The translations under genes and the position numbers were made by a program. Below, piece by piece: positions 26,938 through 64,000 of a stretch of 64,000 nucleotides of DNA. The notes below the pieces were generated by a model. The model was not told where the DNA came from and searched no databases. It saw only the letters and a list, made by a program, of their open reading frames with translations. Origin of the DNA: Stigmatella aurantiaca DW4/3-1 (GTDB taxonomy: Bacteria > Myxococcota > Myxococcia > Myxococcales > Myxococcaceae); assembly GCF_000165485.1 (NCBI RefSeq), contig NC_014623.1:4545501-4609500 (forward strand). The letters run 5' to 3'. Each line of letters starts with the position of its first letter. Position 1 is the stretch's first letter.

Positions 26938-29403
26938 TTACTTCGGAGGGGGGGCCTCCGCGCCGCTCGGCTTGCGCACCGCGGTGCGCAACAGGAACAG
27001 GGCCACGCTGGCGAAGAGGGCCAAACCCCAGAGGTTGGACCAGAGCGGGTGGGCGTGCTCGCTCTCGCCGATGGTGTTGAGCAGGGTGCCCAGGCCTCCC
27101 TCGGTGCCGAACAGCGCCGGGAGGTTCAGGGCGCGCGTGGCGGCCCCGTCGGTGACGATCTCCAGGAAGGCGATCAGCACGCCCGCGATGGAGCCGCCGG
27201 CGATGAGGCCCGAGGAGAGCAGGGTGCCCGGGGAGAAGTCGGCCTCGGCGCCGCCGCGCATCCGGTCCACCAGGCGGCGCACCATGCCGCCCACGAAGAT
27301 GGGGGCGCTGCTGGAGATGGGCAGGTACACGCCCACGGCGAAGGGCAGGGCGGACACGCCGCACAGCTCCAGCATCAGGGCGATGAAGACGCCCAGCAGC
27401 ACCAGGTCCCACGGCAGCTTCTGCGTGAGGATGCCGTCGATGATGAGCGCGAAGAGCTGGGCCTTGGGCGCGGCGTAGCGGGTGAGGGGGACGCCCTCGT
27501 ACTCACTCACGCGCCCGCCGATGGCCGGGTCCACCAGGTACTGGATGGCACCCGCCGAGTCGACGAGGTACTTGCCCGCGGGGACCGGGGTGTCCGCCCC
27601 GCGCACGAAGCCCTCCGTGTAGGTGCGGTCGGGCCCCGGGGTGAGCGTGCCCAACTCGGAGATCTTCGGCGACAGCCCCGGCTTGAGGGCGAGGACGGCA
27701 CCCCCCACCTGGGCGGTGTCGGCCGAGCGCCACGTGCGCAGCTCCGTGGCGCCCTCCTGGGTGGACAGCTCGAGGCCCTGCTTCCACAGCTCGCGGCGCA
27801 GGGCCGTTGCCTCGACCCCCTGGGAGGCCAGCGCCTCCGGGGCCATGGTCCACGCCCAGGTGTGCTGGGTGCGGGTCTTCTGCGTCGTCTCACTCAGGGC
27901 GACGCCCGGGTGCCGCTCGGGGATGAGGGTGGTGCCGCCCTCGTTGAGCAGCACCAGCACCAGGCCGATGAACAGGGCGCTGGTGAGCACGCCCACGAAC
28001 AGGGCGATCTGCTGCTTGCGCGGGGTGCCGCCCACGAGGAACGCCGTCTTGAGGTCCTGCGCCGTCGTCCCGCCGTTGGAGGCGGCGATGCCCACGATGG
28101 CCGCGGTGGTCAGCGCCATGAAGCGGTCGGAGGAGTCCGTCCACCCCAGCATCAGGTACACCAAGCAGGTGATGAGCAGCGTGGCCACCACCATGCCGGA
28201 GATGGGGTTGGAGGAGGAGCCAATCTCGCCGGTGATGCGGGCGCTCACCGTGACGAAGAAGAAGCCGAAGATGACGATGAGCAGCGCCGAGAGGAAGTTG
28301 ACGTGCAGCGGCGGGGCCAGCCAGATGGCCAGGATGAGCAACAGGCTGCCTCCGAGCACCAGGGTGATGGGCAGGTCCTGCTCGGTGCGCAAGAGCTGGG
28401 GCGCGCCGCCCTGTTGGCGCGAGGCCCGAAGGGTGTCGAGGCTGCGGCGGAAGGCGCCCAGGATGGTGGGCAGCGAGCGGATGAGGCTGATGAGGCCGCC
28501 GGTGGCCACCGCGCCCGCGCCAATGTAGAGCACGTAGGCGTTGCGGATCTGATCCGGCGACATGTTCTGGATGAGCCGGGTGTCCGTGGGCAGCACCTTC
28601 TGCGTCAGCCCCGATCCGAAGAACGAGATGAGCGGGATGAGGATGAGGTAGGAGAGCACCACTCCGGCGAAGGTGATGGAGGCCACCCGGGGGCCGATGA
28701 TGTAGCCCACGCCGAGCAGCTCCGGGCTCACCTCCATGGAGACGCTGGCGCCCTTGAGCGCCGTCAGCTTCGTGCCCACCGCCTCCCGGAAGAGCTTCAT
28801 GCCGGAGTAGGCGAACTTGTAGACGCCGCCCAGCACGAAGCCGGTGATGACGGTGCGCGCGTTGGTGCCGCCCTGCTCGCCCACGATGAGGACGTCCGCG
28901 CTCGCCGTGCCCTCGGGGTAGGTGAGCTTGCCGTGCTCCTGGACGATGAGGCCCTGGCGCAGCGGAATCATCATCAGCACGCCGAGGATGCCGCCCAGCG
29001 CCGTCGTCATCAGGGCGTGGGTGAGATCGATGTCATAGCCCAGCAGGAGCAGCGCGGGCAGCGCCGCCGCCACCCCGAATGCCAGGGACTCGCCCGCCGA
29101 GCCCGCCGTCTGGACGATGGTGTTTTCCAGGATGCTGGAGCGCCCCAGGGCCCGGAAGATGGCGATGGAGAGCACCGCCACCGGGATGGAGGCGGACACC
29201 GTGAGCCCCACCTTGATGGCCAGGTACACAGAAGATGCCGCGAACACGATTCCCAGCACCGAGCCGAGCACCAGCCCGCGGAAGGTCAGCTCCGCGGGGG
29301 ACTCGGTGGCGGGAACGAAGGGGGTGTGTGCCAGGGGTGCATGGGCCTGCGCGAGGGGGACGCGATCCTCGGCAATCGGCGGGTGGGACAAGGCTGCCTC
29401 CAA
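26938..29403 (-). CDS. OPT-family oligopeptide transporter
   Basis: 821 residues with about 14-16 hydrophobic segments. The conserved opening FRGLVLGSVLGIVFAASSVYLAIKVGL (quoted in part), NTIVQTAGSAGESLAFGVAAA, KLTYPEGTASADVL and GEIGSSSNPISGM are signatures of the bacterial branch of the OPT superfamily. Members move small peptides or metal chelates into the cell with protons. A soluble insert of about 150 residues (roughly 500-650) splits the hydrophobic core, as in several bacterial members. No neighbouring peptidase or siderophore gene indicates the substrate. The N-terminal 30 residues are His/Pro/Ala-rich and probably cytoplasmic. Confidence 0.92.
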   Translation of the reverse strand: MEAALSHPPIAEDRVPLAQAHAPLAHTPFVPATESPAELTFRGLVLGSVLGIVFAASSVYLAIKVGLTVSASIPVAVLSIAIFRALGRSSILENTIVQTAGSAGESLAFGVAAALPALLLLGYDIDLTHALMTTALGGILGVLMMIPLRQGLIVQEHGKLTYPEGTASADVLIVGEQGGTNARTVITGFVLGGVYKFAYSGMKLFREAVGTKLTALKGASVSMEVSPELLGVGYIIGPRVASITFAGVVLSYLILIPLISFFGSGLTQKVLPTDTRLIQNMSPDQIRNAYVLYIGAGAVATGGLISLIRSLPTILGAFRRSLDTLRASRQQGGAPQLLRTEQDLPITLVLGGSLLLILAIWLAPPLHVNFLSALLIVIFGFFFVTVSARITGEIGSSSNPISGMVVATLLITCLVYLMLGWTDSSDRFMALTTAAIVGIAASNGGTTAQDLKTAFLVGGTPRKQQIALFVGVLTSALFIGLVLVLLNEGGTTLIPERHPGVALSETTQKTRTQHTWAWTMAPEALASQGVEATALRRELWKQGLELSTQEGATELRTWRSADTAQVGGAVLALKPGLSPKISELGTLTPGPDRTYTEGFVRGADTPVPAGKYLVDSAGAIQYLVDPAIGGRVSEYEGVPLTRYAAPKAQLFALIIDGILTQKLPWDLVLLGVFIALMLELCGVSALPFAVGVYLPISSSAPIFVGGMVRRLVDRMRGGAEADFSPGTLLSSGLIAGGSIAGVLIAFLEIVTDGAATRALNLPALFGTEGGLGTLLNTIGESEHAHPLWSNLWGLALFASVALFLLRTAVRKPSGAEAPPPK

Positions 29404-29473
29404 GGACTGAAGAAGCCCCTTGTAGCAGGGCGCCCCCGGGGCCGCGAATCTTCCACTGCATCTGAAACGGCAA

Positions 29474-29499
29474 CGCCCCCGCCGGTGAGGGCAGGGGCG
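29474..29499 (-). terminator. Terminator of the sigma-factor gene
   Basis: On the minus strand CGCCCCTGCC pairs with the CC-rich partner ending GGGGCG across a short CTCA loop, 49 bases past the sigma-factor stop. The stem has an internal mismatch and only a weak T tract (TTGCCGTTTC) follows. Confidence 0.45.
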
Positions 29500-29547
29500 C
29501 TGGGGGGGCCCGTGGAGGGGCCAGGGGCCTGGAAGGTGTTTTAACGG

Positions 29548-30438
29548 CTACTGGAGGGCCGCCGCGGCATCCGGGTCCACCTCGGCCAGCAGCGCCGCCA
29601 GCTCCGCCTTGAGCTTGTCCTTGGCGCGGATTTCCAGCTGGCGGGCGCGCTCGCGCGAGAAGCCGAAGTGCTCGCCCAGCTCCTTGAGCGTCATGGGCCG
29701 CTCGTTCATGACGCGCTGCTCAATGATGAAGCGCTCGCGCGGGTCCAGCCGCATGAGGGCCATGTGCACGCGGCTGTTGATGAGGCCCGCCTCCTCCTTG
29801 TCGGCGAACTCGTCATCCTGCGGCGCGGCGGCGCTCGCCACGAAGTCCACGTGGCTGTTGCCTCCGTCCTCGCCCATGGGCGCGTCCAGGGACAGATCCC
29901 GCCCGCCCATGCGCTGCTCCATCTCGCGCACCTCGGAGGCCTTCACGTTCAGCTTGTTGGCGATCTCATCCACGTTCACCACCGCCCCGTCGCCGGCGCC
30001 GAACTTCTCCAGCTCGCGCCGGGTGCGCGCCAGGCTGAAGAACAGCTTCCGCTGCGCCTGAGTGGTGCCCAGCTTCACCAGCGACCAGCTCTTGAGGATG
30101 TAGTTCTGGATGTACGCGCGGATCCACCACACCGCGTAGGAGATGAGGCGGATGCCCTTGTCCGGGTCGAACTTCTGCACCGCCTTCATCAGGCCGATGT
30201 TCCCCTCCTGGATGAGGTCGCTCATCTTGATGCCGTAGGAGCGGTACTCGTAGGACACCTTCACCACGAAGCGCAGGTTCGAGGTGACGAGCCGGTGGCC
30301 CGCGGCGAGGTCTCCCTTGACGAACTTCCGGGCCAGGGCTTGCTCTTCCTCGACGGACAGAAGGCCGTACTGGTTGATCTCCGAGAGGTACATCGTCAGG
30401 GAGCCAGAGTGGGACGACGGATCGTTGGAGATCTGCAT
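29548..30438 (-). CDS. rpoH: RpoH-type (sigma-32-like) RNA polymerase sigma factor
   Basis: 296 residues of a group of sigma-70 proteins lacking region 1.1. Region 1.2/2 has [29 protein letters not shown] and [19 protein letters not shown]; region 2.3-2.4 has [17 protein letters not shown]; the tract [19 protein letters not shown] is close to the RpoH box. Region 4.2 has [16 protein letters not shown]. Myxobacteria hold several such sigmas (SigB/C/D/E group) used in heat shock and development; which one this is cannot be settled here. ATG 30438 is chosen for the GGGAG upstream. A near-consensus sigma-54 promoter lies 86-102 bases before the start, implying control by an enhancer-binding protein. 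Confidence 0.88.
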
Positions 30439-30523
30439 GGTGGGTTTCTCCCAACGGGGCCTCGCAAGGCCTGTTGAAGTTGAGTGGGTTGGTGCGACTG
30501 GCAACCGCGCGCTGGATGCCTAG

Positions 30524-30540
30524 AGCAACCACGGTGCCAG
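30524..30540 (-). promoter_or_regulatory. Sigma-54 (-24/-12) promoter of the sigma-factor gene
   Basis: On the minus strand, CTGGCACC-GTGG-TTGCT matches the sigma-54 consensus TTGGCACG-N4-TTGCT at nearly every fixed position, with the required GG-N10-GC spacing. Transcription would start near 30512, giving a leader of about 75 bases before the sigma-factor ATG. The 250 bases further upstream (30541-30792) hold no gene and have room for enhancer sites. Confidence 0.72.
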
Positions 30541-30792
30541 CTTTGGGCGAGGAAAATCCCTAGTGAAAACGATGGTTTGTGGAGGCTCTCCCCCGAAGGT
30601 AGGGGCGGAAGCGTGAAAGGATTACAGACGGCTTCCGGTAGGAGCAGGGGCCTGTGACTGAACGGAATACGCCGCGCGGACCGGTGCCTATCGGATGGAT
30701 GGATTCCATGTCTCAGCACTAACGGGCCGAGGGGGAAGTCTCCGAAAAGTGTCCTGGTCCGGCTGCCTTGAGGGCGAGAGGGCGGGCAGGTC

Positions 30793-32787
30793 TCAGGAAG
30801 CTCGGCGCGTTTGCAGCACCTGGCGCAAGGGGCCCAGAAGCCGCTCGGTCTCTCCGGGCTGGAGGGGGCGCTGGCCAAAGCGTGCTTCGAGGTAGCGCCG
30901 GGTGAGGGGGACCAGGGGGGCGGCGAGCGTGGGCTGTTCCCGCGTCAGGCGCGAGGTGAGCTCCTCCAGCGCTTCGCCCTCGCGCATGCGCACGCCAGCC
31001 TCTCCCAGCAGGCGCTCCACGGCATCGGCCAGGTGGGTGGCCTGGTGGGGCTTGGGGGAAGAGGACCGCCGGGAGAGGAGCTGCCACACCGAATAGGTGA
31101 CGAGCCCCGCGGCGATCGCCAGGCCCCAGATGCGTGCTGGGGGCAGCCGGGTGGTGTCCCGGCGTGGGCCCCTCGGAGGGCGGACGAGGCCCTGGGCCAG
31201 TTGCAGCTGATCCCGGAGTGAGAAGTCCACGACGGTGGAGCGCCAGCGCGTCTCCAGGGCTTCATAGAGGCCCGTGAGGAACTCGAGCGCCGCCAGGCTC
31301 TGGCTGGCCCGGTTCGCGGGGGGGGTGGCATCCACGGTGACGAAGCCCCGCCCCGGCATCAGCACGTGCGTCCAGGCATGGGCATCGCCCGCGCGGACCA
31401 CATAGCCGTCCTCCACGCGCTCGCCTCCAAAGAAGCCCGAGGCCAGCCGGGCGGAGATTCCCTGGGTGCGCAGCAGCAGGGTGAGGGCGGTGGCGAAGTG
31501 CTCGCAGTGGCCCGCCTTGCGGACGAAGAGGAAGTCCACCAGGGGCTCTTCCACGTCTCCGGAGAGCTCCAGCGTGTACGTGTACTCGCGCTGGAGGAAG
31601 GCGGCCAGCTTCCGGGCCGCGGCCAGGGGGTCCTTCTCCCCCTGGAGGACACGCTGGGCCAGCGCGGCCACGCGGGGATCCAGCCGGTCCGGCAGGGCCA
31701 GGAGCTGGCCCCGTTCGGCCTCACTCATCGGCGTGGTGGCGTCCTCTTCGGGCGGGAGGCTGGTGGCCTCGTAGCTGTAGGCGATGGCCGGTACTTGGAA
31801 GCGCACCTCTCCGCCGCCCAGCTCCGTCAGCGGGGTCCGCTGGCTGCCGGTGGCCGAGTGGGCCAGGGCGTTGCCCAGCCGGGTGGGGGTCTCCAGCGCC
31901 ACCAGCGTGGTGCCCCCGTAGGCGGGCAACAGCTCGATGCGCTGGTGGATGGAGTGCTCGCCCCCGTGCCGCAGCGTCACCCGGGGGCGGGTGCGCTTGG
32001 GCTGGCCGATGCTCGTCCATTCCTGGCCGTCGAAGGTGTCATAGGTGCGCGCCAGCCAGTAGGCATCGAGCCGCTCCCGGACGGGATCCGGGGTGAGCTG
32101 GGCGCGCAGCACCACCCGGGGATTGCTCTTGAGGGTGCCCTCGCCCCCCAGGCGCACCGTGTCGGCCAGGCCCGTGGTGGCCCCCAGCCCGGGGGCGGAG
32201 CGCCGCGCGGCCATGTTCCAGTTCAAGCGGGGAAAGAGGAGGAAGAAGGCCGCCGCGCCGCACACCGCGAAAAAGATGCCGGAGCCCAGGGGCCGCATCA
32301 CCGCGCGCACGGGCACCGGCTCGCCCGGGGGCACGGCGCCCTCCACCACCGACAGCCCCATGGAGAGGCTGGCCAGCACGCCGAAGGCCAGCAGGCACAG
32401 GGCGAAGGCCAGCTCTCCGGACAGGGCCGCGCCGCCCGCCACCATCAGCAGGCCGGCCAGATGCACCTGCCCATCCGTGCGGGGCTCTGGCATGGACAGC
32501 AGCCGGTGGCCGGCGATGAGCCCCGCGAAGGCGCACGAGGCCACCACCAGATCCACGTGGCCCGCGTACACCGAGAAGACGAGCACGCCGGCCACGCCCA
32601 GCAGCACCGCCGCGGTGGCCTTCGTGCGCCGGGCGAAGATGCGCCAGCCCATCAGCGCGCTGACCAGCGCGAGGCCGAAGAGCAGCAAGGTCCACGTGGG
32701 GAGCTGCCCGGACACGGCCATGGAGGCAAATGCCGCCCCGGCGGCCAGATCTCTCAAGACCAGCCGCAGCCGGGAAGCGCCGCTCAC
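30793..32787 (-). CDS. TgpA-like membrane transglutaminase
   Basis: 664 residues. Six to eight hydrophobic segments in residues 10-185 (DUF3488-like) anchor it in the inner membrane. A periplasmic transglutaminase-like domain follows with the triad Cys428 (AGHCEHFATA), His470 (GDAHAWTHV) and Asp486 (VTVDATPP). A last membrane helix near 560 precedes a DUF4129-like tail. TgpA-type proteins occur with MoxR and DUF58 partners, as here; their substrate is not firmly known. GTG 32787 overlaps the DUF58 stop (GTGA) and has GGAGGAGG five bases upstream, showing tight coupling. Confidence 0.87.
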   Translation of the reverse strand: MSGASRLRLVLRDLAAGAAFASMAVSGQLPTWTLLLFGLALVSALMGWRIFARRTKATAAVLLGVAGVLVFSVYAGHVDLVVASCAFAGLIAGHRLLSMPEPRTDGQVHLAGLLMVAGGAALSGELAFALCLLAFGVLASLSMGLSVVEGAVPPGEPVPVRAVMRPLGSGIFFAVCGAAAFFLLFPRLNWNMAARRSAPGLGATTGLADTVRLGGEGTLKSNPRVVLRAQLTPDPVRERLDAYWLARTYDTFDGQEWTSIGQPKRTRPRVTLRHGGEHSIHQRIELLPAYGGTTLVALETPTRLGNALAHSATGSQRTPLTELGGGEVRFQVPAIAYSYEATSLPPEEDATTPMSEAERGQLLALPDRLDPRVAALAQRVLQGEKDPLAAARKLAAFLQREYTYTLELSGDVEEPLVDFLFVRKAGHCEHFATALTLLLRTQGISARLASGFFGGERVEDGYVVRAGDAHAWTHVLMPGRGFVTVDATPPANRASQSLAALEFLTGLYEALETRWRSTVVDFSLRDQLQLAQGLVRPPRGPRRDTTRLPPARIWGLAIAAGLVTYSVWQLLSRRSSSPKPHQATHLADAVERLLGEAGVRMREGEALEELTSRLTREQPTLAAPLVPLTRRYLEARFGQRPLQPGETERLLGPLRQVLQTRRAS

Positions 32788-62493: not shown

Positions 62494-64000
<1,507 letters not shown>

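Follow-up and report, generated by a model that had tools for sequence, protein, structure and literature searches.

Is the gene for an RpoH-type sigma factor in Stigmatella aurantiaca DW4/3-1 itself switched on by a second sigma factor, sigma-54, and if so, through which upstream site would an activator reach it? The gene lies in a stretch of 64,000 nucleotides (positions 4,545,501-4,609,500; hereafter the window) of a genome that forms a single contig of 10,260,756 bases (10.26 Mb) and encodes one rpoN (PF04552 match) and 48 genes with a sigma-54 activator domain (PF00158, E <= 1e-40). Control by sigma-54 within a cascade is the best reading of this locus. In full, this reading comprises a sigma-54 promoter, an upstream activator site and a two-step sigma cascade, and we give it a probability of about 0.7; binding, activation, the transcription start, the activator and its signal, as well as the rpoN dependence of the promoter, are the parts that we infer. 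The features concerned are listed in Table 1.

Table 1. Features at the sigma factor locus (positions in the window)
Feature	Position	Strand	Basis
Gene for a sigma factor of the RpoH (sigma-32) type (296 aa), probably orthologous to M. xanthus sigB	29548..30438	minus	family models
Predicted 75-nt leader to ATG	30439..30513	minus	start predicted 12 nt downstream of the C in the -12 GC
Stem-loop GGCCT-TGCG-AGGCC in the leader, just 5' of the ribosome-binding site	30458..30471	minus	leader comparison
-24/-12 (sigma-54) promoter element CTGGCACCGTGGTTGCT	30524..30540	minus	exact match, rarity in the genome, ortholog conservation
Probable activator (enhancer) site CTGTAATCCTTTCAC	30613..30627	minus	alignment, position, weight matrix, held-out tests

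The sigma factor gene and its relatives

An earlier, sequence-only reading had described the gene as RpoH-type, and this assignment is borne out by the sigma-32 subfamily model NCBIfam NF005143, which the protein passes with 317.8 bits (cut-off 241), and by Pfam sigma-70 regions 2 and 4 (PF04542 and PF04545), which score above cut-off together with region 1.2 (PF00140), while region 3 falls below. The RpoH equivalog model TIGR02392 gives 318.8 bits and thus misses its cut-off of 323.1, so the product is RpoH-like rather than a certified RpoH. The ATGCAG start of the gene is retained in the aligned orthologs, and the closest named relatives belong to Archangium, Hyalangium, Pyxidicoccus, Myxococcus and Corallococcus.

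The M. xanthus genes sigB and sigC reportedly date from the 1990s, from work by Apelian and Inouye in 1990 and 1993. Based on gene arrangement and chromosome position, the window gene is probably sigB (MXAN_3357) and its 78% paralog sigC (MXAN_6209). In M. xanthus AM003, the ortholog of the window gene (locus L027, 89%) comes after a same-strand transglutaminase gene, as it does here, and a proportional estimate puts the sigma loci of genome G046, at 3.94 and 7.43 of 8.97 Mb, where MXAN_3357 and MXAN_6209 would be expected. According to PMC4320627, a gene next to M. xanthus sigC runs divergently from it, and the gene 5' of the 78% paralog in M. vastator is apparently divergent as well; in the genome of the window, however, the gene upstream of the 78% paralog lies on the same strand, which counts against the name sigC.

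Two side observations concern these gene types. About 40 bp downstream of the sigC-type gene, and in the same orientation, lies a gene that resembles polyphosphate kinase 2 by eye (L391:5647-6465); both may share one transcript. Myxococcus-like loci of the sigB and sigC types (L029 and L050, 88% and 77% to the window protein) are found on contigs under the title 'Comamonas sp. KCTC 72670', and this record is probably misnamed.

A rare promoter element upstream of the sigma gene

The sequence-only reading rested on a near-perfect -24/-12 element at the right distance ahead of the sigma start, with some 250 gene-free bases upstream, and each of these observations was confirmed. The sequence TGGCACCGTGGTTGCT spans 30539..30524 of the minus strand and is preceded by a C at 30540; the GG of its -24 part is found at 30538-30537 and the GC of its -12 part at 30526-30525, with 10 bp in between. 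On a scale with a maximum of 15, which is our own weighting of TGGCACG-N4-TTGCW, the element at 30540-30524 (minus strand) reaches 14.5, the sole scored deviation being a C instead of a G at the seventh base. Counted from the T of TGGCAC, the ATG of the sigma gene (30438) is 101 nt away, and about 253 bp separate the element from the end of the upstream gene at 30793, which encodes a TgpA-like transglutaminase on the same strand.

How easily such a match arises by chance depends on its quality. With up to two mismatches, TGGCAC-N5-TTGCW is found 27 times in the GC-rich DNA of the window, where 29.5 matches are expected; as this is about chance level, which would favour a fortuitous origin, only near-perfect matches are informative. 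The element upstream of the sigma gene is the only zero-mismatch match in the window, and in the whole genome exact matches to TGGCAY-N5-TTGCW are found 19 times, compared to five for a backward-read control. This density corresponds to a probability of approximately 3 in 10,000 for an exact element in a given 300-nt sense upstream region, and two of the 19 precede the two closest RpoH-type genes, namely the window gene and its 78% paralog (C1:8,096,747). The element is moreover conserved in all upstream regions of the orthologs, with controls near zero, so that a chance match is ruled out by conservation and its residual probability is negligible. That the element is a working sigma-54 promoter, the promoter part being taken alone, is highly probable. 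Other exact elements at C1 3859658 (L094), 7074655 (L101) and 4310620 (L095) precede genes which, judged by eye, resemble those for the type II secretion protein GspC, LpxC and glucan synthesis, respectively.

Conservation of the element and its limits

Conservation was assessed in a sample of 80 named loci plus loci from further genomes inside and outside the order; 183 loci matched and 167 were kept after removal of rows with too little upstream DNA or an identical last 150 nt, and the element was counted as present at a score of at least 13.5 of 15. Conservation in close relatives had been put forward earlier as a check on the element, which passed it: the element was present in the upstream regions of all 35 orthologs and, among the other relatives from the order, in 63 of 72 (overall 98 of 107 same-order rows), with spacer bases that vary. 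The nine same-order rows below the threshold are L045, L138 and L145 (13.0), L146 and L156 (12.5), L161 and L166 (12) and L158 and L081 (10.5). The same threshold was reached by 33 of 8,350 dinucleotide shuffles, by none of 167 antisense sequences and by none of 119 regions from -1000 to -700. Seven same-order loci were added afterwards and stand outside these counts; three of them are repeats of L073, L078 and L083, and the other four are new, with a score of 13.5 at three loci and 12.5 at one.

Outside the order, in 18 genomes of Myxococcota, the element precedes only two of 29 rpoH-like genes (L121 and L133). A divergent third RpoH-like paralog (44%) was considered as a further carrier of the promoter and rejected, since none of its 31 upstream regions has the element. 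In a protein tree of 75 chosen rows, for which the element threshold was 13 or more, the window gene belongs to a clade of 47 rows (support 95/88), in which the element is found in 42, weak in three and absent from two, and the clade of the third paralog (12 rows, support 100/100) has no element in any row. L121, L133 and L145 carry the element outside the 47-row clade, all on long branches, and an older origin or separate gains are therefore possible.

Within the order, the same plan precedes the SigC-like paralog and the genes of most relatives, and was probably inherited through duplication. Anaeromyxobacter is a non-fruiting genus, which may have lost fruiting; six named loci from this genus (L073, L075-L078 and L083) possess the element, so the arrangement is not tied to fruiting. 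The sequence-only reading had proposed a sigma-to-sigma cascade as used in development or heat shock: a probable cascade is supported, while the link to development or heat shock is less so in view of these six loci.

At the weak end, genome G059 has a window-like copy with an element score of 12.5 and a second copy with 13.0; the first copy has the upstream motif described below at -91. Nine genomes of the same family, 5.3-9.5 Mb in size (G063, G080, G102, G111, G119, G121, G124, G133 and G143), each yielded one RpoH-type match, with E-values that resemble those of the third paralog, and G060 yielded none; matches were counted at E <= 1e-60, and in several genomes only 16 first-look candidates were scored. 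The sigB and sigC types seem to be absent from these ten genomes.

A near-palindrome at a near-fixed distance

The gene-free DNA upstream of the element had been proposed to serve enhancer binding. This guess is now backed by a conserved near-palindrome. In the aligned upstream regions of the 35 orthologs, GTAAC-N-GTTAC is conserved, and the paralog and Anaeromyxobacter have a related form that begins with CTGTAA at a nearly equal distance from the element, the right half of the paralog-type motif being different. The window copy lies 88 bp upstream of the promoter element and is a degenerate, single copy of CTGTAA-N3-TTAC[A/C]G; with a weight-matrix score of 14.7 forward and 13.5 reverse, it is the sole site above 4 in the 253 bp. 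The matrix was built from 101 of the 107 ortholog and same-order rows, namely those with a promoter score of 13 or more, and 95 of these 101 promoters, on which the matrix was itself trained, score above 9. Of 97 sites with a motif score above 6, 78 are found at -85 to -92.

Because the matrix had been trained on the same rows, held-out tests were made. A matrix from the orthologs found scores above 8 in 18 of 66 other rows, compared to 11 of 1,320 shuffles, and a matrix from the other rows did so in 23 of 35 orthologs, compared to 22 of 700 shuffles, and controls from farther upstream gave no hits (0 of 33, 0 of 27). The signal is clear, although it extends to only 18 of the 66 other rows; the shuffles in these comparisons retain nothing but base content, the palindrome used to seed the search was known beforehand, and the rows, being related, are not independent. 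Confined to -93..-83, the hits number 11 of 66 versus 1 of 1,320, and 13 of 35 versus 0 of 700, respectively.

Genome-wide use of the near-palindrome was considered and rejected. With up to one mismatch, the genome has 13 matches at nine places, compared to 28 for the backward control; five of the nine places score above 15, none having a sigma-54 score above 11 of 15 at 50-160 bp downstream. A similar motif precedes two of the remaining 17 exact sigma-54 sites, namely L089 (14.8) and L095 (12.4, reverse strand).

The promoter could be a genuine sigma-54 promoter while the near-palindrome at -88 is bound by some other regulator, the enhancer-binding protein acting from elsewhere or from solution. 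Many dimeric regulators bind inverted repeats, the genome as a whole shows no enrichment of the motif, sigma-54 elements do not follow its other copies, and orthologs have a second conserved block, CAACCCC, closer to the promoter. However, in most lineages the near-palindrome keeps a near-fixed distance of 85-92 bp from the element, and a second copy is found at -134 in eight of 35 orthologs and at about -143 in Anaeromyxobacter-type promoters; such spacing and second copies fit the activator sites of sigma-54 promoters. A different regulator at this site is therefore an unlikely explanation, and the near-palindrome is a probable activator site, as judged from its spacing and conservation.

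Leader and other routes of transcription

Transcription is predicted to start at about 30513. The stem-loop in the predicted leader has a stem of five in the window, and in orthologs it is GC-rich and often of the form GCCTCC...GGAGGC. A perfect stem of at least five is present in 25 of 34 ortholog leaders (35% of shuffles) and one of at least six in 21 of 34 (9% of shuffles), with two of these 21 located elsewhere in the leader; only one of 35 other same-order leaders has a perfect stem of at least six. A search of Rfam gave no match at 29300-31000.

The main transcription could also come from a sigma-A-type promoter or from read-through of the transglutaminase gene, perhaps with another activator, with the sigma-54 holoenzyme playing a minor or blocking role. 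MrpC, which is not an enhancer-binding protein, is the proposed, putative activator of M. xanthus sigC (PMC4320627) and the only activator proposed for sigB or sigC in the literature searched; moreover, RpoN is reported to be able to repress in E. coli (PMC8743547). The transglutaminase gene has the same orientation as the sigma gene, and a scan of 30300-31000 gave no terminator-like site between them. On the other hand, the same scan, which may miss myxobacterial promoters, returned no sigma-70-like site, and the sigma-54 element is kept in the great majority of same-order rows. Furthermore, the gene before the paralog is apparently divergent in M. vastator, so read-through is not general. 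Taken together, a main route without sigma-54 is very improbable.

Candidate activators

At nine of the 80 loci searched, a gene for a response-regulator sigma-54 activator is convergent with the sigma gene, either adjacent or within about 2 kb. These loci belong to Anaeromyxobacter and its kin (L073, L075, L076, L078, L079, L083, L084, L085 and L086); at L077, no convergent activator was found. At L076, the one locus examined in this respect, the gene behind the convergent activator encodes a CxxCH-containing histidine kinase. As a regulator of the window gene this activator type was rejected, because it has no reciprocal best match among all 48 activators; among 39 parsed proteins of the genome it gives four near-tied hits of 42-44%. 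It stays a lead for its own family only and, lacking a clear ortholog here, suggests that activators may differ between lineages.

Genome G059, whose genus label g20 is common to G061, G096 and G097, has 41 activator-domain genes, and 14 of the 48 activators in the genome of the window have a reciprocal best match there. For two of these 14, L255 and L261, neither G063 nor G121 yields a reciprocal best match, these being family members with only one RpoH-type match. L255 (C1:5,501,202-5,502,536) is a response regulator and 68% identical to its match in G059, and the value for L261 is 54%. Both are weakly nominated as candidate activators from a comparison of three genomes in which the element of G059 is itself weaker; promoter and motif together are absent from the loci of L255 and L261. 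A further sigma-54 activator gene, a frame of 501 codons with the motifs GESGTGKE and GAFTGA, is found at the right end of the window (63240-63381, minus strand).

Proposed mechanism and significance

According to the sigma-54 cascade reading, RpoN-containing RNA polymerase would form a closed complex at the -24/-12 element, to be opened by an enhancer-binding AAA+ protein that binds mainly to the near-palindrome located 85-92 bp upstream (30627-30613 here). The RpoH-type, SigB-like sigma factor would then be produced only while the signal of the activator is on and would direct its own genes, thereby forming a two-step sigma cascade, and one of the approximately 48 activators, together with sigma-54, would switch on the SigB/SigC-type sigma factors. 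Glycerol-induced sporulation of M. xanthus is accompanied by a rise of rpoN, sigB and sigC (PMC2875238), and rpoN and sigC were described as developmentally regulated (PMC6791715). Deletion of rpoN is reported to be lethal in this species (PMC12316311). It is tempting to speculate that the Myxococcales possess an old, dedicated relay, in which one activator family (perhaps that of L255) reads CTGTAA-N3-TTAC[A/C]G and fires SigB-/SigC-type promoters independently of fruiting, and which was recruited into sporulation in the fruiting genera; this wider idea is tentative and rather doubtful.

The combination of a conserved promoter and a conserved upstream site makes the control of sigB and sigC directly testable. 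It would also join the activator cascade to the sigma factor cascade, which are set as alternatives in PMC2875238. Although the circuit is of a known type, the conserved upstream site and the spread beyond fruiting genera raise its usefulness.

Comparison with known systems

Sigma-54 control of a sigma-32-type gene is a known kind of circuit, exemplified by E. coli rpoH. For this gene, which likewise has a near-consensus -24/-12 element listed with it, the sigma-54 site CTGGCACAGTTGTTGCT is given in a ChIP table (PMC4591121), and rpoH is a genomic-SELEX target (PMC8743547). E. coli belongs to a distant lineage, and here a duplicate pair has the promoter and the upstream motif in common. Since so few rpoH-like genes from Myxococcota outside the order reach the threshold, the arrangement looks independent of that of E. 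coli.

The RpoN-to-RpoS cascade of Borrelia depends on a different activator and has RpoS as its target, while the target in the window is an RpoH-type sigma factor. What the two would have in common is a sigma factor gene under the control of sigma-54, as described for Borrelia (PMC3162934). According to a survey of regulons under sigma-54, specialised sigma subunits, including COG0568, are consistently associated with this kind of regulation, with no Myxococcia named for it in the passage concerned (PMC12316311). In the openly licensed literature searched, which does not include the original papers on these genes, no statement on a sigma-54 promoter for M. xanthus sigB or sigC was found.

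The closest system in the same bacteria is the enhancer-binding protein cascade of M. xanthus, including Nla28 and others, in which the sigma-54 machinery is activated upon starvation and activators drive the genes of further activators (PMC7910581, PMC6791715); here, in contrast, a sigma factor gene is the target. The Nla28 half site CT(C/G)CG(C/G)AG (PMC7910581) also differs from the near-palindrome described here. What is new at this locus, as seen in aligned upstream regions, is the near-palindrome CTGTAA-N3-TTAC[A/C]G, a putative activator site whose copies are mostly located 85-92 bp 5' of the promoter element.
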